A DNA stretch of 64,000 nucleotides from Sialis fuliginosa (lineage: Eukaryota; Arthropoda; Insecta; Megaloptera; Sialidae): NCBI GenBank assembly GCA_961205875.1, contig OY540819.1:10046501-10110500 (forward strand), written 5' to 3'. The notes beneath the pieces were generated by a model. That model was not told where the DNA came from, ran no database searches, and saw nothing but the letters and a program-made list of their open reading frames with translations. Numbering within the stretch: the stretch's first letter is position 1; every line of letters starts with the position of its first letter. This document shows, piece after piece, positions 2,858 to 43,090 of the stretch. Made by a program: the position numbers and the translations under genes.

Positions 2858-3120
2858 TATTGTGAAATAATTGATACGAAACTTCACTAATCAAGTACTT
2901 AGGAATCAATATCAAAAAATCAATAGAAACTGTAATTTCTCTGTCTCTTGAAGACCACATTGATCTCAAAACACCTGCGAATGAAGCACAAAGGTTTAAA
3001 TACATATGCAATTTTTGTGACTTGGGCAAATTGTTATCTACGCATTCGGGATAACGGAGACGACATTGCCTTTGAATGCGAACGTAATCGTTTGTGTTGT
3101 CGTGTGTCTCTCTGTCTGTA

Positions 3121-3135
3121 CGTGTGTGTGTGTGT
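3121..3135 (+). repeat. Short (GT)n microsatellite
   Basis: About seven GT units, just downstream of CT-rich sequence. Confidence 0.8.
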
Positions 3136-3376
3136 CGGTAAAGTCAGTTTTACATGAACCGGAAATTATTTATATGATGGAAGGATGCGTGTTAGGTATT
3201 CGATACTGATTGAAATTATTCTATTTACAATGTTTCTTTGTCATATTTGTAATAGCTGTATGTATAAATGTATACAGTAGGTTTAATATTTATTGTATCG
3301 ACTGACGTTTCTAAGAACCTAAGAAAAATAAATTTAAAACTTTTTTCGTCAATAGATTTTTTTTAAATTGTTATAT

Positions 3377-3908
3377 AAGGTACTGGCACCAGTTATGGCC
3401 GCTATAAGAGCAAGGCTTACTGTTTTTGTGATTGACGGGCTTATTTTTTGTAATTCTTATGAACTCATGTTACTAATAAAACAAGTAACTCTTTATTTAA
3501 TCAATTTAATTACCAAAGTCCGCAAATATAGTTTGTTTTTTAAATGATAGCCTTGTATTTTGTTTATGTTTTTTCTCCAGTAATGGATAAAGTAAAATCA
3601 GTAATGAGCACGCAGTGATGGACACTTGCTAATGATTACAAAATGATAAGTAAGTACTACGACACAAAAATATAAAAAAAAGAATCGTCAAACAAACAAA
3701 AATAAATTAATAAAAAAATTATACTAATAATTAGTTCAAATGTCCACCATTTTGACACCTATTGGCCGATAGTCATCAAATCACACTGTAAGACAGTTAA
3801 ATGTATGTATATAGATTAATATTCAGAAATGGTAGTAACCAAATATCAACAAATATTTCTAATTCAGTTATTTAATTAAAAAATAGTCATTACTGGGGTC
3901 ATATCACT
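3377..3908 (+). mobile_element. ~530-bp TA-flanked MITE family, copy 1 (3' truncated)
   Basis: Begins aaggtactggcaccagttat and runs through the family landmarks 'gccgctataagagcaag', 'gagcacgcagtgatgg' and 'ttactggggtcatatc'. The right TIR (actggtgccagtacctt), present at 35880 and 42650, is missing: sequence diverges after ggggtcatatc. The family is non-coding and A+T rich. TIR symmetry and TA at the intact ends fit a Tc1/mariner-type MITE. Other copies: 11881-12396, 35348-35880, 42142-42650, fragment 38248-38298. Confidence 0.75.
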
Positions 3909-4744
3909 CAATACATAAAAATAGTCAATATGCTTTGAAAAGTCTCGAAAACATGAAAGTCTTGTGAAAATTCATTAACAAAATTTCCAGGGTAATTACA
4001 ACAATTTATTTGTCCTATAAGTGGGAAGTTAGAAAAAAATCATTGTAAATACAAGACGTGACGTCATGCACCATTAACATATTTACTATAAAAACAATCA
4101 TGGAAACTACAATGTACGTAACTTGTGACATTTTAAGAAAAGTTGCATGTTGTTTTATACACATAATTGTAACGCTACACAAATAAACTATAGTCGACGC
4201 AAATGTCAACTGTATATAACAAGAAAAAAGAATGTGCTATTATTAAATCAATTTCCATATATAACTAAATGTTATTTATAATTATACAAGTGTATCGGAT
4301 ATTATATTGCATTAATGTTGATTTTAAAATTAAAAATAATTGATTCTACTAATTAATTAATTGTTACTGTTTAATTCCAAGAATTTTAAACTGTTAAAAT
4401 ATTGTAACTATAGCAACTGTGTATATTATTTACCAAAATTGTAGTTATTAACATTTAATTAACAATAACAGGAATGGCATTAATGCGATTTTGTTGAATT
4501 ATTTTACTCCAATACATACAAAATTTATTGTAAACAAGCGCAAAAAGCAGATCCACGGATAAATATCAACTAAATTAATTTACAATATGTCTAGGTACAA
4601 TCATGATATTATAATAGCTCAATGTTTGTGTATGTATGACGTGTCTATCGTTTGGTTACCATGGCATCAGTATAAACAACACGTTTTATGTTTTATAACT
4701 ATAGTAAATATAGTTCAGGCATCAAATTTACAAGAAAAAAAACA
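3909..4744. other. AT-rich non-coding DNA
   Basis: Only short, low-complexity reading frames. Nothing else recognised. Confidence 0.5.
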
Positions 4745-5376
4745 TTTGCCAGGTAAATTCACAGTGCTTCCTCGTGCTAAATTGGCCAATTAATTATTGA
4801 ACAATTTTAATAAACACCGATAAAGTATTCTCATGAACTGACATTGGTTAACCATTTAATTTTTATACAATTTTATTAATAAATATTTATTTCAATCTAA
4901 ATCTAAATTGTTCTGCTATGCAAACGTCAAAATCATATATTAAATAGCAATAAATCTTTGAAAGACAATATTTTGCAATAAACGTTGTAGACCTACATTA
5001 TAGAAAATTGAATGCTCTACAAAAAAGATACTATAAAATTTTCACGTAACATGTGTCGTTATTGAGACATCTTCAAAAATAAATATTTTGGGATATCACC
5101 CCTCCCCTTACACACGATTTTGATGATTTTGAAATGGGAGCGTCCTAAAGCTAGACCCAACCAACCAAGTTTCATAAATATCGGTTCAGTGGTTCATTAG
5201 TTATGCCTGTGACAAGGATTCAGGAAACAGACAGACAGACACGGAACAAAAAGTGTTTGTCTTGACCTGAAACGGAAAGGTCAAGTTAAAATTTTGAAAT
5301 CGGAGAACAATTTTTGTCTCATTTTAAAACAATCACAAAGCTTCTCGTATCTTCGATATTGTAAGAGGAAGCAACA
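4745..5376 (+). repeat. Interspersed repeat with GACAGACA core, copy 1
   Basis: The left part (cacagtgcttcctcgtg) recurs at 29587. The right part (gtgacaaggattcag, then acagacagacagacacggaac, then ggagaacaattttt, then atcttcgatatt) recurs at 29640-29878 and inverted at 62755-63060. The ends carry a short inverted match (cttcctcg / gaggaag). No protein is encoded. Repeats with this organisation are common in insect genomes; I cannot assign a class. Confidence 0.65.
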
Positions 5377-8685: not shown

Positions 8686-9200
8686 TTGAGGGTTTTTGGG
8701 GTCGCTGATTACGAATCCGCTATTAAATTTGCGAAATTCAAGATGGCGGATTCAATATGGAGGACACCGACGTTTAAATCTTCGAGAATATTGATAAAAA
8801 TTTTTATTCAGGGGTTTTTGGGTTCACTAATTATAAATCCAATGTCAGATTCACGTAATTCAAAATGGTTTATTACGGCTATTTGGTTAATCTAATATGG
8901 CTGACATCAATACGTAAATTCGATGAGATTTTGAAAATTCACTCTTTCTCGGCATAACCCAGAGCTAACGACAAGGACGTGAAGAGTTCTAGCTCGATTT
9001 TTTTTATTTTTAATTTTTTTTTTACTTCTTTTTTATTTTTATTTTTTTTAATTCTTTTTTATTTTTCCGTTATATAGAGCTATGTGAAAATAAGTGTCGA
9101 CTTGTGCTACAAAAACAGTGAATTTCCGAAATCTCATCGAATTTTTCAAATTTACGTATTAATGTCAGCCATATTAGATTAACCAAATAGCCGTAACTCG
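8686..9200 (+). repeat. Two ~122-bp tandem units followed by an inverted repeat
   Basis: The units start with gggtttttgggg at about 8690 and 8812 and share 'attacgaatcc/attataaatcc' and 'attcaagatgg/attcaaaatgg', so they are diverged tandem copies. The end of the second unit (about 8874-8940, including tggttaatctaatatggctg) returns inverted at about 9119-9200. A 69-codon open frame across the units reflects the repeat structure and is not taken as a gene. Confidence 0.65.
9000..9066 (+). repeat. T-rich low-complexity tract
   Basis: About 65 bp of almost pure T/A, dominated by runs of 4-10 T, in the loop between the inverted arms. Confidence 0.8.
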
Positions 9201-10059: not shown

Positions 10060-10479
10060 CACCTATCCCCCGATTTACACGGCACTTGTTTTACACGATT
10101 TATAAATTGACAATTTTCAAAAAATTAGTAGAAATGTTTATTCCGCTCCATATACGCCTATTCAAAGATTTGATGGCATTTTTGAATTTTTTTCCTTCGG
10201 TAACCTGATGAAAAGAACAGGGCTTGTAAAATATACATTTAGGGGAATCTCGGTAATCTGTGCGTATGTATTTCACAATATAAGTGGGTAGCACAGGTCC
10301 AATTGGTCGCTGTGGTTGCTACTGCAATAATATTTATTTATAAATATATTTATTTTTTGAATTGGTGCACATTTTGGGTTTTTTTTTCGTTTTACACGAT
10401 TTTACTTAGCAAAATCCAAGATTTCAGTTTACACGGTTTTGTGCAGAACGTATCTACCGTGTAAATCGGAGAATAGGTG
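10060..10479. mobile_element. 420-bp pogo-like MITE
   Basis: Left end cacctatcccccgatttaca and right end (gtgtaaatcggagaataggtg) are near-perfect inverted repeats. TA flanks both (10058-10059, 10480-10481). Further copies of the TIR core (tttacacg) occur internally near 10090 and 10390, as often seen for transposase-binding sites in pogo-type MITEs. Short frames inside are chance. Confidence 0.78.
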
Positions 10480-10884
10480 TATAGGTATTGTTTTATATGA
10501 TGATATTAAATTTAACTTAAATCGTATCGTTCAGATGTCAAAGCTATTCAATTTTAATTCAATCTTGTCGAGAGTTTCAGTATTATCAAGAATTAGTAAA
10601 AATGTATTACTTGTATCGGTCTCGTTTACGTACACGAGACAGATCGGCTTATATTAGACAAGATGGCTCTATTTTTCACGAGACGAGACGAGACTAACTA
10701 ACCTCTCGTATATTTGTTGTTTTATACTACATAAAATTAAATACCTCATTTTTTTCTTTGACATCTAAATAATTCAATTTGTTTCATATAATTCCATAAA
10801 AAACACAAATACAATTTTGAGTAAGTACTTACATATTTGATACTTGCTAATTATTCATAGAAACATACCTGCAACAAAAAACAA

Positions 10885-11269: not shown

Positions 11270-11876
11270 CAAGCAACCCTTAGCTGGAATTTACATTTAC
11301 ACCTACTAAAGTTCTCATGAATGTCCTGGGTAGTCCCCAAGGACAAACAGAGCGCGCGCTCCAGGTGGAGCCCGTTTGACGTGTGTATATGATTTATAAT
11401 GAAATTATTAGAACACGGTCGGGATGCATTAGCGCAGATTGTTACGGCTTATCGATCACAGTGGACCTCAAATAAAGGGTTGGCCAGATTTTTCCACACA
11501 TATCGATTTGAATCGTTTCAACAGGAATTTGACTCAAAAAAATATTTTGTTTATAGTAGAAATGAATTTTCCTACCCCCCTGGACCATAAATTATGGATT
11601 TTTGTAGATTGCACCCATTACAACTTTTGATCAGCACACTTTGAACTATCATTTCCACAAAAAATTTCAACCAAAAGGCAAAATTCATTGCATTTATGCT
11701 GGATCTTTTCTGCTTGTGGACATGGGTATATTAACAAAAACAGATTGTTTTAATGTCCTCGATAACTCCTTAAAGTTTGTTGGTATGTTTACGGAACACC
11801 CTGTATATTATTGCGTAAACTTCGATATAAATAAAATATAATGAAAGTTTTCTACTTATAAATATATGTACATATA
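11270..11876 (+). other. Unassigned, moderately GC-rich stretch with short frames
   Basis: Contains overlapping frames of about 63 codons (11399-11590, 11439-11630) and one of 66 (11641-11841), none recognised. A 45-bp segment (around 11430-11475, cgcagattgttacggc) is repeated at 12541-12587. The end carries ggaacaccctgtata at 11794-11808, a motif found at termini of some insect mariner-like repeats. This is probably decayed repeat DNA. Confidence 0.35.
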
Positions 11877-11880
11877 AGAT

Positions 11881-12396
11881 AAAGGCACCAGTTATGGCCG
11901 CTATAAGAGCAAGTTTTCAGGTTTTTTTTTATTAATGGGCTTGTTTTTTGTAATTCTCATGAAATTATGTTACTAATAAAACAAGTAACTCTTTATTTAA
12001 ACAATTTAATTACCATTAAATTATAGCCTTTTATTTTATTTATGTTTTTTATACAGTAATGGATAAAGTAAAACCAGTAATGAGCACGCAGTGATGGACA
12101 CTTGCTAATGATTACAAAATGATAAGTACCTACGACATAAAAGATCTAAAAGAAAGAATCGTCAATAATAGTATAATAATTACTAAATAAATTATACAAA
12201 TAATTAGTTTAAATGTCAACTATTTTGACACCTATTGGCCGATTGTCATCAAATTACGCTGTAATACAGTTAAATATATATAGATTAATATTCAGAAACG
12301 GTATTAATCAAATATCAACAAATATTTCTAATTCAGTACATTTAATTAAAAAATAGCCATTACTGGGGTCATATCAAAGACTGGCGCCCGTACGTT
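11881..12396 (+). mobile_element. ~530-bp TA-flanked MITE family, copy 2
   Basis: Same interior as copy 1 (gccgctataagagcaag, gagcacgcagtgatgg, ttactggggtcatatc). The left TIR is shortened (aaaggcaccagtta) and the right end has decayed to actggcgcccgtacgtt. It is non-coding. Confidence 0.75.
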
Positions 12397-12540
12397 AATG
12401 TAAGTTTCTTCTTATAAGTATATATAAAAAAAAAAAAAAATCAACTCATTAAAACCCAGATCATTTTACCTTCTATGCTAATAGCCACCATCGATTTCTA
12501 GATCTATTTCTCGAAATTGAATCGAGATCGACATCCCTGA

Positions 12541-33889: not shown

Positions 33890-35347
33890 ATATTTTTATA
33901 TGTATATTAAGATTTAATTATTTTTTCTAGAAACTGTCATTTTAATCAATACAAATTTGGAGAGGTCCTTAAAATGGCTTAAAATACATACAGTGGTGGA
34001 TCGGTCATCCCCTTGAGGGTGTCACCCGTTTCATATGTCAAAAAATAAAGCCTATTAACCCTTTTCTTGGTTATTTAAAGCATCCACGGGTTGTTGTTCT
34101 TTAAATACAATGAAAGAATATCTCAACCAAGTTAAGAAAACATTTTTAAATACGGTTTTAGTATAATAGATCTTCCAATTATTATGTATAGTTCTGTAGT
34201 TAGTTTCACATCATTGAATAGATAAAGTTTTATGCATCAATATATTTTATCATCAGTGAAGCTTCTACTTGAAAGAGAACCTATAGTTTAACTACTTTAT
34301 TAAAACGAGAGCAAAATACTTGTAACAACTTATACAAAAAATAAGGTACATACATATTATTTAATTTATTATTACATCAAATATTTTAAACTAACGGACA
34401 TTTTCTTATCATCAGCACATTAAATATCATAAGAAAGTGTTGATCCTCTAATTCAACTAAAAAACGGTAGACAACCACCTTTTTATTTAAAAACACGTTC
34501 TTAATGTGAACATTTTTCAATTCTACATATAGATAATGTTCTCCTTGATAAAACTATCCGATTAAAGTATTACCTGCTTTAAACTTTTTGTTAGTACTGT
34601 ACACTGTACACATTATATGTTTATATAAGCATACAAATGTATCTACCTATATATGAGGATAATAATAAGCAAGAATATTAAATTTGTGTACCTATATGTG
34701 TGTGTTTGTACACTTTTTAATTAGATTGCGTTTCTTTTTATGTGTACAACGCTCATTCAAGACGTTTCATTTTTGTTTTTGTATTATGATGCTAAAATTA
34801 ATTAACAAGAAAGACTCTATTCACGTGGCAATGTCAATTAAATTATCTGCTTTTTTTGTTCTTTAGTTTTAAAAATACATTATTAATTAATTACACATAC
34901 AGGGTTGAAATCAATATCATTTCGAATAGATGAAAATATTTTCTAAAATTTGAAATATTATATTATTTCGAAGCTTGCTCGAATTTACCGTTAGTTTTAG
35001 AATTTGATCATTTATTATAGGTATGTAATTATCAAAAAAGAAGTATTTTTAATAATTAAATTAGAACTATCAAATGCCAAAATGAAATTAATTAAGTTGT
35101 AGAACAATCCTATTTTCTACATTTTGTTAATAAGTTGTTAGAACTTCATTCAGTTATTTATGACCAAACGTGACGGTGAAATTTAAAACTAATTATAAAT
35201 TTAAATCAAGTTTCTTTACAAAAAAAAAATGTATTTACGAGTTTGTTTTAATATTAAATGTTTGCATGTTGCTGAAATAACAAAGATTTCCATGTATTCA
35301 GTAGTTAAATTCTATAAATTAAACAATAGTTATTCTATTGTAAAAAT
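33890..35347. other. AT-rich non-coding DNA
   Basis: No gene seen. 35215-35330 resembles 46795-46880 (aaaaaaaatgtatttac, gaaataaca, gatttcc, gtagttaaa). Confidence 0.45.
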
Positions 35348-35880
35348 AAGGTAGTGGCGCCAGTTATGGCCGCTATGAGAGCAAGGTTGACTGTTTTTGT
35401 GATTGACGGGATTCTTTTTTGTAATTCTCATGAACCCATGTTACTTATAAAACAAGTAACTCTTTATTTAATCAATTTAATTACCAAAGTCCGCAATTAT
35501 AGTTTGTTTTTTAAATTATATAGATAAAGTAAAACCAGTAATGAGCACGCAGTGATGGATACTTGCTAATGATTATAAAATGATAAGTATTACGACACAA
35601 AAAATATAAAAGAAAGAATCGTTTTTGATACAGTATAAAGCAACTGCTTTGATAATATAATAATTAATTAATAAATTATACTAATAATTAGTTTAAATGC
35701 CCACCATTTTGACACCTTATGGCCGATTGTCATTAAATCACGCTGTAAGACAGTTAAATGTATATAGATTAATATTCAGAAATGGTAGTAATCAAATATC
35801 AACAAATATTTCTAATTCAGTACATTTAATTTAAAAACAGCCATTACTGGGGTCATATCCAAGACTGGTGCCAGTACCTT
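35348..35880 (+). mobile_element. 533-bp TA-flanked MITE, copy 3 (most complete)
   Basis: The only copy with both ends: aaggtagtggcgccagt at the left, actggtgccagtacctt at the right, with TA at the borders. The interior matches copies 1, 2 and 4. There is no reading frame of length, so it would need a transposase from elsewhere. Confidence 0.82.
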
Positions 35881-36383
35881 ATATTTTTTTTAATTTTAAA
35901 CTGATATGTTTATATGAGATATTTCTTATGAATGCAAACAGCTGTGTTGCATAAAATAAAAACAAACATTACATTTACTCCACACGAAGGGTTAAAGGTA
36001 CGGTTGTAATTATTTAATACAACAGTTACATGTACTTTGTCTTTATGTACATAAATGTACGTACATTCATATAATGCATGTACCTTAAAATGTTGATATA
36101 TGAACCACCCACTAGTGGACACAACTTCCATGTACATGGCAGAGTTGTCAAACTATTCAACAATAAATTAATGAGTACATTTAATTGCTAACAAGGGGAG
36201 ATCATATCTAGGGAAGTTGGGATTTTAGTCAGCTTTGGAGAGGTGAATCTAGACCAAAAATAAGGAGACACGTGTTCGAGAACTCATCTGGGCAGCCCTT
36301 ATTAGTAAAGATATTAAATTTTGAAAATTGGTATATTTCCTTAAGCTCTTATGTACTGTAATAAGCATCTACGTTAACAATCC

Positions 36384-36455
36384 TTCAATGGCTGTGTGTG
36401 TAGAGCGCCGGCTTATGATCCAAAGAACACAGGTTCGAATCCCGTACCCTGTACA
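36384..36455 (+). ncRNA. tRNA-like (SINE-type) segment in left arm
   Basis: A-box-like tggctgtgtgtgtagagc and a perfect B box ggttcgaatcc (36432-36442) are spaced as in a tRNA. The T arm pairs 4 of 5. The 5' bases do not pair with the 3' 'accctgt', so no acceptor stem forms and it is not a working tRNA. A TTTTT run just downstream could stop RNA polymerase III. It reads toward the centre of the element. Confidence 0.6.
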
Positions 36456-37160
36456 AAATAATTTTTATTTTTATTTTCAATTGTTTCTTACTTTTTATTT
36501 TTTTACATATAGATTACCACTACCTGCTATTTATACATTATGTTTTTTAGGTAAACATATCGATAATATATGTTTTTTGGGTTGAAATACACATGTAAAG
36601 TTTTAAATAGATTATTTTTATTGAAACTACGTATATAATTTACCAATTAAAAATATATTTCAATTGTTAAACTTTTAAATATTCCAAACTGTGCATCATT
36701 TATTATAAAATAAAAATAATAATATCGTATAATCTTACTTGTTTTATTTAATTAAAGAAATATAAATATAAACAAATAACTAGCTGTAAATAATTTAATT
36801 ATAAGGCCAAAAAGGAAAAAAAATAGAAATAATAATATTTTCAATAGTATAGAAGACCGATAATTTATTTGAATAAAAAAAATTAAATAAAAGTAAAAAA
36901 TAATTTATTTAGGTATCAAATAAATTTGATTAATTGAAATATATTTTTAATTGGTAAATTATATACGTAGTTTCAATAAAAATAACATCATAAATAAACT
37001 ATTTAAAACTTTACATGTGTATTTCAACCCAAAAAACATATATGTATTATCGATATGTTTACATAAAAAGCATAATGTATAAATAGCAGGTAGTGGTAAT
37101 CTATATGTAAAAAAAATAAAAAGTAAGAAACAATTTAAAATAAAAATAAAAATTATTTTT

Positions 37161-37232
37161 GTACAGGGTACGGGATTCGAACCTGTGTTCTTTGGATCAT
37201 AAGCCGGCGCTCTACACACACAGCCATTGAAG
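37161..37232 (-). ncRNA. tRNA-like (SINE-type) segment in right arm
   Basis: Mirror image of the left-arm copy, B box complement at 37173-37183 (ggattcgaacc). The sequence is unchanged in both box regions. Read on the minus strand it also points toward the centre, so the two units are convergent. Confidence 0.6.
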
Positions 37233-37424
37233 GATTGTTAACGTAGATGCTTATTACAGTACATAAGAGCTTAAGGAAATATACCAATTTTCAAAATTTA
37301 ATATCTTTACTAATAAGGGCTGCCCAGATGAGTTCTCGAACACGTGTCTCCTTATTTTTGGTCTAGATTCACCTCTCCAAAGCTGACTAAAATCCCAACT
37401 TCCCTAGATATGATCTCCCCTTGT

Positions 37425-38060
37425 AAGTCCTACAGTTAATTTTATTTTTTGACGTGGCCTTGTATCACCTCCCACAATTTTTAATTCAACCAATATTTTT
37501 CTTTGACTGAACTAAGCGACACTTTGTAAACATTAGTAGTTATTTATTATATGTTATCCTTCAATACCTTACAAAGTTTTAAAAAACATTACCATAAATA
37601 AACGGTCTTTTGTTATTGGACTGTGTCAAGATATTCGAATGTATATCATGCACATTATGTCGAATGAGTGATTTGTTCTAAAACAACGAAGGAACTGATA
37701 ACATTATGTACATATAATAGAAATTGACAGGTTATGACAATATACATGACAACGAACTGTTCTTGGTTAAGGCAATCTCTGTGACAACTAATCTTCGGTG
37801 GCGGGAGTAAGATATAGGTTAAAATGGAGATCAATCTTCCCTACGACGAACTGTTCTTATCGTCGCTGTTTCTTGCAAACATTTTTTGCACACACGTAAA
37901 AACTTTCTATTGTTTTGGAACCGCCAAGTTTACTACCAATACTTATATATATAAAATCTGTAGGGTCTGTACCTGTAAAATGTTAAATTATATTTTTTTT
38001 TATTTCATACGTCGTTTTACAGGTAATATAATCTTTTTTATAGTTAAAAAATAATTTTGT
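37425..38060. other. Non-coding DNA
   Basis: No gene recognised; the open frame at 37824-38054 (+) is AT-driven at its 3' half and shows no known motif. Confidence 0.4.
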
Positions 38061-40759: not shown

Positions 40760-42139
40760 GTGTTGAGGTTTTATATCGATTAGATATCCTACTCTATAAA
40801 GGAGAGGTTTTTAATTAATTTGCGCGCAAAGTTAATTTTTATTCGCTTATCTTTAATTAATATCTTTCTATAGCGGCTGCCGTCGATATTTAACAACTCT
40901 ATTATCGTGAAAAGTGTGAAGAATGGCTGCCCAGATTTTGAAAAGGTTATTTATTATTTGTTTACGTTTTCTTTTATAAAATATGTTAATTAAAACAAGT
41001 ATAATTTTCATTTTAGTAAAATGTGATAAATGTATAGAATTTTTAATTAATAGCATGTATATTCAAAGGTATATATGTATATTATAATAACGATGAATAT
41101 ATACCGTGAGCTCATTTATTTTATCTTATATAATAATTTAAAATAATTCTCCAAATAAGATACAAATAAACATTTTTTTTTGTTCTTTTTGGTTTCCGAG
41201 TAAAAAATTATTTTGTTAAATGTCTTATACTTACAAAGAATTTTTTTCTTATAAAATATCTGCTAGAGGAGCCACGGGACTTTCTTATACGTGAGAGTGA
41301 ACAGTGTACTTATTTGTAATTTTATTAAAAAATATTTATTTCAAACAAACTAATAAAATATTGAATAAAATTGGGGCATAATTATATATAATAAAATTAT
41401 CTAATATTTATTATGACCCGATTTTCTTGTTTAATATTCGCCCATTTTAATGTTTAAATAAATGTGATTTCAATGAAAAATAATGAAAATTATTATTTAT
41501 AAAGTAAGTAATGATGTTCTTTCTTATTTTTGTATCTTTAAATTGATATTTCTATAGAAAGTTGAATTTTCAACCATCAAATATGACTAAGATTTTAGAT
41601 TTCGTTACAAGTACATATGTTTATTATATAGAAAATAATAATTTTAAAAAGTTGACCGTGAATTGACCTTGAAAACGTCTAACAAATCAAAAAATAAATA
41701 TCATTTTATTTTAGTTTTAGAAATATTCCGGTTGTTATTCGAAGATAACTTCAAAGTTACTGTGAATAGTTCCATAGTACTATGTCGCCAAACAAGAGAT
41801 GTTTTTTTTACCCACCCGGTATATGTACGTGTATTATGTATAAATAATTTATTTTCACTTTTATTATGATGCATATGTGCACTCTACACTCCCATATTTT
41901 TAATTTATTCCCAAAACGTCCATTCTGGACAAACAATGGAGTGTCAGTAAGTATTATTTATTTCTATACAAAAATCAAAATATAACAGCGATGTTGCATA
42001 CAAATTATTCTTTCTGTATAGAAAATTCGTTAATTTATAATTTTAGTAATTCATATAGGTAAGTACTGTTTAATATTTGCGAATGTATTTATTTTATATG
42101 TTTTGTTTGCGAACAAAAGATATTATTATTAATTCAAAG
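40760..42139. other. AT-rich non-coding DNA
   Basis: Contains the short dispersed repeat at 41255-41315 (third copy of the ccacgggactttct family) and a possible mariner-like end at 41810-41825 (acccacccggtatatg). The short frame at 41663-41869 spans that end and is not called. Confidence 0.45.
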
Positions 42140-42141
42140 AT

Positions 42142-42650
42142 AAAGGCCGCTATAAGAGCAAGTTTTCGGTTTTTTAAATTAATGAGCTTCTTTTTTAGAA
42201 TTCTCATGAACTCATATTACTAATAAAATAAGTAACTCTTTATTTAATCAATGTAATTACCAAATATAGTTTGATTTTTAAAATTATACCCTTTTATTTC
42301 GTTCTTGTTTTTTCTCCAGTAATGCCAAAAGTAAAACCAGTAATGAGCACGCAGTGATGGGCACTTGCTAATGATTACAAAATGATAAGTACTACGACAC
42401 AAAAGATATAAAAGAAAGAATCGTCAAATTTGAAACAATGTAAAGCAGTTGCTATGATAATATTAATTAATAAATAAATTATACTAATAATTAGTTTAAA
42501 TGTCTACCAATTTGACACCTATTAGCCGATTGTCATCAAATCACGCTGTAAGACAGTTAAATGTATATAGATTAATATTCAGAAATGGTAGTAATCAAAA
42601 TAAAAAATAGTCATTATTGGGGTCATATCCAAGACTGGTGCCAGTACCTT
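42142..42650 (+). mobile_element. ~530-bp TA-flanked MITE family, copy 4
   Basis: Intact right end (actggtgccagtacctt). The left end has lost about 17 bp of TIR and starts at aaaggccgctataag. The interior is as in the other copies, with a small insertion also seen at 35.6 kb. Confidence 0.78.
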
Positions 42651-42659
42651 ATAACTTAA

Positions 42660-43090
42660 TCGTTATTTCAAGATGTTTTCAAATTTAAAATGTATTTTTA
42701 ACTCACATATTTATTTAATGATATTTTTTACATGAAATAAAAATGTCACTTTTATAAACGCAGCAATACAGAAATTCACCTACGTTTTATATCTACGTTT
42801 TCACTTGTGTATTAAATATTTAATAAATCACAAATGATATTTTCCATTCCTATAAATTTCGAATACCTTGCTCCATCTCACACAAATCAGAATTTCCCCA
42901 AAGACCAGCTTTGGTGACCTTCTACGTGGTCAGTAAGGATTATATCGATCAATACAAAGACATTTTTCACACTTCAAGGATAAAAATGTAGCGATATTTG
43001 TAATCAATATAATTTTGTGTTTTAGAGGTTAATATTTTGCCAACATAATTAAAAAGAATAGAGCTGCAGATTACCTTTAATTTTAACTGT
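42660..43090. other. Non-coding DNA
   Basis: 42890-42950 is less AT-rich but has no recognised frame. Confidence 0.4.

Follow-up and report, generated by a model that had tools for sequence, protein, structure and literature searches.

A foldback element of Sialis fuliginosa with a tRNA-like unit in each arm is very probably a deletion derivative of a Tc4/Tc5-like DNA transposon

The window analyzed here is a stretch of 64,000 nucleotides from Sialis fuliginosa (contig C11:10046501-10110500), and the genome searched comprised 392 Mb in 20 contigs. L-numbers denote loci taken from the same genome, and digits after a colon give the position inside the locus. At positions 36192-37423 of the window there is a foldback element of 1232 bp, flanked on both sides by a TAA target-site duplication. 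Its features, with the parts assigned relative to the parent-type element described below, are as follows.

36189-36191, no strand: TAA target-site duplication, left copy, preceded by C
36192-36665, plus strand: left arm, 474 bp, read as the parent type's 5' terminal inverted repeat, which was retained (matches L082:104-591, 94%)
36389-36455, plus strand: tRNA-like unit of the left arm (arm positions 198-264)
36389-36400, plus strand: weak A-box-like segment TGGCTGTGTGTG, judged against the A-box consensus
36432-36442, plus strand: perfect B box GGTTCGAATCC of the left arm
36462-36477, plus strand: T runs (T5-A-T5-A-T4), a possible Pol III stop
36666-36931, plus strand: AT-rich core, 266 bp, read as inner sequence of the 3' inverted repeat in the parent, the left counterpart of which was deleted (element positions 457-1232 are contiguous with L082:3400-4171, 95%)
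36932-37423, minus strand: right arm, 492 bp, read as the outer portion of the 3' terminal inverted repeat in the parent
37160-37226, minus strand: tRNA-like unit of the right arm
37173-37183, minus strand: perfect B box of the right arm
37424-37426, no strand: TAA target-site duplication, right copy, followed by G

The first-pass annotation had described a foldback at 36191-37424, with near-identical arms of about 480 bp around a 266-bp core. Alignment of the arms (36188-36665 against 36932-37427, each interval taking in 4 flanking bases) showed 95.4% identity over 496 positions including gaps, which verified the foldback, the inverted orientation of the arms and the length of the core; the exact arm lengths are 474 and 492 bp, and the true ends lie 1 base further inward on each side, at 36192 and 37423. 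The outer ~260 bp of the two arms are identical to each other. When up to 3 mismatches were allowed, the 17-base tip was found in the window just at the two ends of the element (0.04 occurrences expected by chance). The element strand is predicted to form an almost complete hairpin of -795 kcal/mol, a value that stands without a shuffle control at such length. The window also contains a dispersed repeat family in four direct copies (3375-3883, 11875-12400, 35346-35884 and 42122-42684; parts up to 93% alike), the third of which is located ~300 bp upstream of the foldback, and a small MITE-like element at 8873-9196 with 51-bp inverted ends (TTACGGCTATTTGGTTAATC...) that are 96% complementary.

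A genome search with 273 bp of the arm yielded 322 candidates, and all 40 that were scored were 99-100% identical. In loci L001-L060, each of 32 distinct copies had two ends and matching 3-bp duplications, with 1232 bp as the commonest length and a mean divergence from the consensus of 0.45% (median 0.41%). The tip pattern, at up to 2 mismatches, occurred at 147 places genome-wide versus 1 for the reversed control. Among the matches listed, 62 of the 63 exact tips formed 31 convergent pairs and the partner of the remaining tip had one mismatch. The foldback family is multi-copy and very young, and other genomic copies have the convergent tRNA-like arm segments that had been proposed for it. 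As to whether arms occur alone or paired, which had been left as a check, the exact tips listed are paired and single shortened arms are present among older copies (L067, L069, L098 and L101). A local inverted duplication, which the first-pass annotation had considered for the case that the arms were confined to this locus, or an assembly artefact has nothing in its favor except the hairpin shape and is already refuted by the 32 dispersed copies with the same structure at different sites and by the existence of empty sites (see below).

As a possible sign of homogenization between the arms of an element, variants common to both numbered 90, versus a mean of 26.8 and a maximum of 62 in 200 shuffles in which right arms were dealt among 57 elements; subfamily ancestry accounts for part of this excess. 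Rare variants were mostly found in one arm (8 shared versus 352 single, a difference inflated by the unequal-armed L083, L086, L091 and L092). A second foldback, with tips AGTCCAGTAATTTTAGAT, is nested in one copy of the family (approximately L061:1914-4113). No relative was found in viral contigs, where 3 pattern matches were obtained and none was confirmed.

Matching 3-bp duplications were detected in 59 of 61 two-ended elements (L001-L092; the exceptions were L070 and L084), and in 57 of the 61 a C precedes and a G follows, as in a CTNAG-like target, leaving four that lack this C..G frame. The left-side triplets were TTA (28), TAA (18), TCA (7), TGA (6), ATA (1) and CTT (1). The family inserts into CTNAG and duplicates TNA. 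The TAA duplication had at first suggested a MITE of the PIF/Harbinger type, whose 3-bp duplications are mostly TTA or TAA, and indeed these two account for 46 of the 61 left-side triplets; in addition, the genome contains 146 matches to DDE_Tnp_4. However, TCA or TGA, found in 13 of the 61, run against the TWA rule, 57 of 61 elements have the C..G frame, and the protein encoded inside matching ends has Tc5 and DDE_1 domains, with no match to DDE_Tnp_4 (PF13359) up to E=1. Among the elements fetched with these tips, none showed a DDE_Tnp_4 gene. Because the duplications are TNA within CTNAG and the parent protein is Tc5-like, the PIF/Harbinger assignment was abandoned and retains hardly any probability.

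To find empty sites, the flanks of the 61 elements were joined and compared with the fetched loci. Paralogous sites spanning the junction were obtained for 14 of the 61 elements at E<=1e-5 and for 13 at E<=1e-8, and 12 of the latter showed no gaps around the junction. The CTNA letters were exact in 8 of these 13 sites, including that of the parent, and the target letters differed in five (L008, L089, L090, L091 and L092). Several of the paralogs lie in the element's own locus, as tandem or inverted host repeats, and the empty site for L006 was found inside the window (10366-10481). The empty sites show that elements of this family insert.

A related tip pattern led to a full-length relative of 4068 bp at C3:6140044-6144111 (L082:104-4171). 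Its inverted repeats are ~850 bp long and 97% identical over 857 alignment columns (~5 flanking bases per side included), both contain the tRNA-like unit, and its target-site duplication is TTA, in C..G. The open frame has 625 codons, or 607 amino acids counted from the first ATG. The protein matched the Pfam families HTH_Tnp_Tc5 (27.6 bits, cut-off 22.2) and DDE_1 (23.8 bits, cut-off 22; residues 396-511), and Transp_Tc5_C scored 20.4 bits (E 0.00068), below its cut-off of 27.4. D321, D439 and D480 are a candidate DDD triad, chosen by eye without an alignment of Tc4/Tc5 proteins. A PDB sequence search gave no relative, and NCBIfam nothing beyond a weak IS630 match. Two further full-length open copies are located on C9; their fetched ends are 99.7-99.9% identical to L082, and their duplications are TTA and TGA, again in C..G. 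With L082 included, the genome contains three full-length open transposase copies. Other candidates for the parent were rejected: L061 (C12, 3.4 kb) is itself a derivative and contains a further, nested foldback, and L081 (5.0 kb) and L083 (2.9 kb) have matching ends but longest frames of 122 and 85 amino acids. No recognizable ends were found in the flanks of three older transposase fragments.

Other sequences related to this transposase were also observed. Locus L097 (C3:31285700-31290900) has four tandem intact ORFs (305-1174, 1982-2821, 2945-3796 and 3986-4834) of 279-289 amino acids, which share 45-49% identity with the N-terminal ~280 residues of the transposase, with pairwise dN/dS of 0.27-0.58. 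The two of these ORFs that were scanned have a Tc5-type HTH above the cut-off and no DDE domain. The locus may possibly be a host gene cluster domesticated from the DNA-binding half of the transposase, or a repressor. Seventeen other genomic places match just the last ~30-40 residues (from 567-569), a cysteine-rich tail, and sit mostly in ORFs of 41-45 amino acids. One stretch of contig C14 (about 2-9 Mb) is dense both in matches to DDE_Tnp_4 and in fragments of Tc5-like transposases.

The first 474 bp of the window element correspond to L082:104-591 (94%) and its last 776 bp to L082:3400-4171 (95%), and this two-block alignment therefore suggests that the window element is the parent type without its middle. 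A deletion of the middle would have left unequal remainders of the two inverted repeats, ~474 bp on one side and ~776 bp on the other; both the arms and the core would then be inverted-repeat DNA, the core being the stretch left unmatched by the unequal deletion. L082 itself is a close relative and not the exact source, because it is 94-95% identical to the element, compared with a distance of ~0.5% between derivatives and their consensus. Transposase supplied in trans would bind the repeat tips, excise the derivative and reinsert it at CTNAG, which is a putative route of mobility. Overall, the structure and class of the element are well supported, and we consider the foldback to be a non-autonomous, MITE-like derivative that arose by internal deletion from a Tc4/Tc5-like cut-and-paste DNA transposon, with a probability of about 0.92.

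The tRNA-like unit begins at arm position 198, i.e. 197 bp in from the transposon end. The perfect B box GGTTCGAATCC and the downstream T run reported from the first reading of the sequence were confirmed in both arms, the T runs of the left arm being at 36462-36477. The A-box consensus is TRGYNNARNNG; the A-box-like segment TGGCTGTGTGTG reported at the same time is there but weak, and the A box is poor in young copies generally. Of 124 arms of the family, 114 have the unit and 105 a perfect B box, so that the absence from other copies which had been named as grounds for rejection was not observed. The ten arms lacking the unit are both arms of L062 and L072, that of L067, and one each of L083, L086, L089, L090 and L091. 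One more distant sequence, L112, is 73% identical over ~89 bp of the tip, and the 747 bp fetched from it contain no B box; this is a single case with one end known.

The first-pass annotation had suggested that each arm might be a tRNA-derived SINE captured in an inverted duplication. Each arm does have a tRNA-like unit, a perfect B box and a downstream T run, and the similarity of the unit to a host tRNA-Arg exceeds that of shuffled sequences. However, a Tc4/Tc5-like transposon supplied the arms, which are its long terminal inverted repeats: the unit lies 197 bp inside the transposon end, and the arms finish in transposon tips with TNA duplications. The exact tips listed occur as convergent pairs, one with a one-mismatch partner, and a genome pattern that excluded the spacer letters of the family gave 0 matches. 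The family form of the unit core, at up to 3 mismatches, was found at 166 places in the genome. Of the 100 places listed, all exact, 86 are at the right distance from a listed tip, 7 are in fetched family elements (L041, L060, L094, L096, L107 and L109), 3 more were fetched and proved to be arms, and the remaining 4 belong to two convergent pairs, within C10:6465950-6467400 and C13:6775900-6777250. No unit outside the family was found in 336,569 bases of fetched loci (overlaps included); one other B-box word, at L014:2703, is without tRNA-like surroundings. In none of the places examined did a Pol III head come first, singly, with a tail and a target duplication of its own. A SINE origin of the arms is thus very unlikely.

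ARAGORN predicted 0 tRNA genes and the Rfam tRNA model gave no match even at E<=10 in the window copy and the other arms given to these programs; cloverleaf recognition by tRNA models therefore failed. Host tRNAs were represented by 27 loci, from 63 scored. The best match of the derivative unit was tRNA-Arg(TCG), with a score of 39 that 0 of 300 shuffles reached (maximum 31), and for the parent unit 1 of 300 shuffles reached 39 (maximum 40). Thus, the tRNA-like character proposed earlier holds as similarity to a host tRNA-Arg above shuffles, but not as a tRNA recognized by either tool. In the alignment with the tRNA, stretches of the D arm, the anticodon arm and the T arm follow one another in order, and a gap of 8 bases falls in the region of the D loop. 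For 53 distinct units, the nearest tRNA was Arg(TCG) in 36, Phe in 9, Ile in 5, and Arg(TCT), Lys and Ala in 1 each.

It is conceivable that this likeness arose by chance and that the inverted repeat just has a B-box-like word. Both tRNA programs were negative in the arms given, the best partner differs between units (17 of 53 are not Arg(TCG)), and the borders of the unit were set after the sequence had been seen. Against this, the shuffles reached the observed score in 0 of 300 trials for the derivative unit and 1 of 300 for the parent unit, and the three arm stretches align in order, which makes a chance resemblance unlikely. Because the tRNA-Arg score beats the shuffles, the unit, with borders picked in hindsight, probably derives from a tRNA, and probably from tRNA-Arg. 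Most likely it is a degenerate relic that has kept the B box, lost the A box and the cloverleaf, and is carried passively in the inverted repeat.

Alternatively, the unit might be a working TFIIIC/Pol III site that serves the transposon or the local chromatin. The perfect B box seen in most arms (105 of 124), the T runs downstream and the presence of the unit in both parent and derivatives could be taken in this sense. Of the repeats overlapping extra-TFIIIC sites in C. elegans, 95.1% are CeRep3 tRNA-pseudogene repeats, as stated in excerpts of PMC6950938. However, the A box is weak, there is no tRNA fold, and a tree of 114 arms gave 1.42 changes per site in the unit, compared with 0.66-0.93 for the outer inverted repeat and 2.0-4.0 for more internal parts (10 of the 124 arms had been set aside because they lack the unit, and the selection of arms by tip pattern favors conserved tips). 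Because the unit changes more per site than the outer repeat, there is no extra constraint on it, and this tree shows no special conservation. RNA folding of the unit was not special either (z of -0.75 and -1.57). We therefore regard a working site, as opposed to the passive relic, as improbable; a working role, for example as TFIIIC sites like those of the CeRep3 repeats, is possible but unsupported by the present analysis.

Several features of the family can be compared with known transposons. Tc4 is a foldback transposon of C. elegans, reportedly described by Yuan and colleagues in 1991; the ~1.6-kb Tc4, with ~0.77-kb inverted repeats, is the short form of the longer coding Tc4v, and we know of no tRNA-like unit in Tc4 inverted repeats. 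The CTNAG target, the TNA duplication and the fold-back shape are common to Tc4 and the Sialis element, whereas host and size differ and the tRNA-like unit is a feature of the latter. Tc5, also from C. elegans, has a CTNAG target and inverted repeats of ~0.49 kb. The L082 transposase shares with it HTH_Tnp_Tc5 and DDE_1, with Tc5_C below threshold, and the target is likewise CTNAG; in contrast, the inverted repeats of the Sialis parent are longer (~850 bp), and the Sialis family has the tRNA-like unit.

According to excerpts of PMC11071193, Tc4 elements are DDD elements that target CTNAG and duplicate just the TNA, the same target and duplication as in the Sialis family; their consensus deposits in RepeatPeps, Repbase and DFAM came from nematodes and arthropods only, to which that study added tardigrades, and their known distribution is limited and references are few. 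The C|TNA|G target of these tardigrade and arthropod elements is as in the Sialis family, and the word "tRNA" has 0 occurrences in the main text of that paper. The extra-TFIIIC sites of the CeRep3 type resemble the present case as repeated tRNA-like sequences with a B box; they differ in that both their A box and their B box are strong and supporting ChIP data are presented, according to excerpts of PMC6950938, whereas the Sialis unit has a weak A box and is known from sequence alone. Among the literature matches listed, represented by titles and the beginnings of abstracts, no description of a tRNA-derived piece in a MITE, a foldback or Tc4/Tc5 inverted repeats was found, which does not prove absence.

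Because three open copies, derivatives at ~0.5% divergence and empty sites share one assembly, this genome allows the transition from parent to foldback to be followed directly. A tRNA-derived piece fixed in the inverted repeats of a DNA transposon seems unusual. A tentative and rather doubtful extension is that a Tc4/Tc5-type transposon took up a piece of a tRNA-Arg gene in its terminal inverted repeat and now carries convergent pairs of TFIIIC (B-box) sites around the genome, in which case its insertions could act as movable extra-TFIIIC boundaries, or their hairpin templates could give rise to short, convergent Pol III transcripts that would feed self-silencing. A tRNA-derived piece in transposon repeats offers a clean test of whether transposons can spread B boxes.
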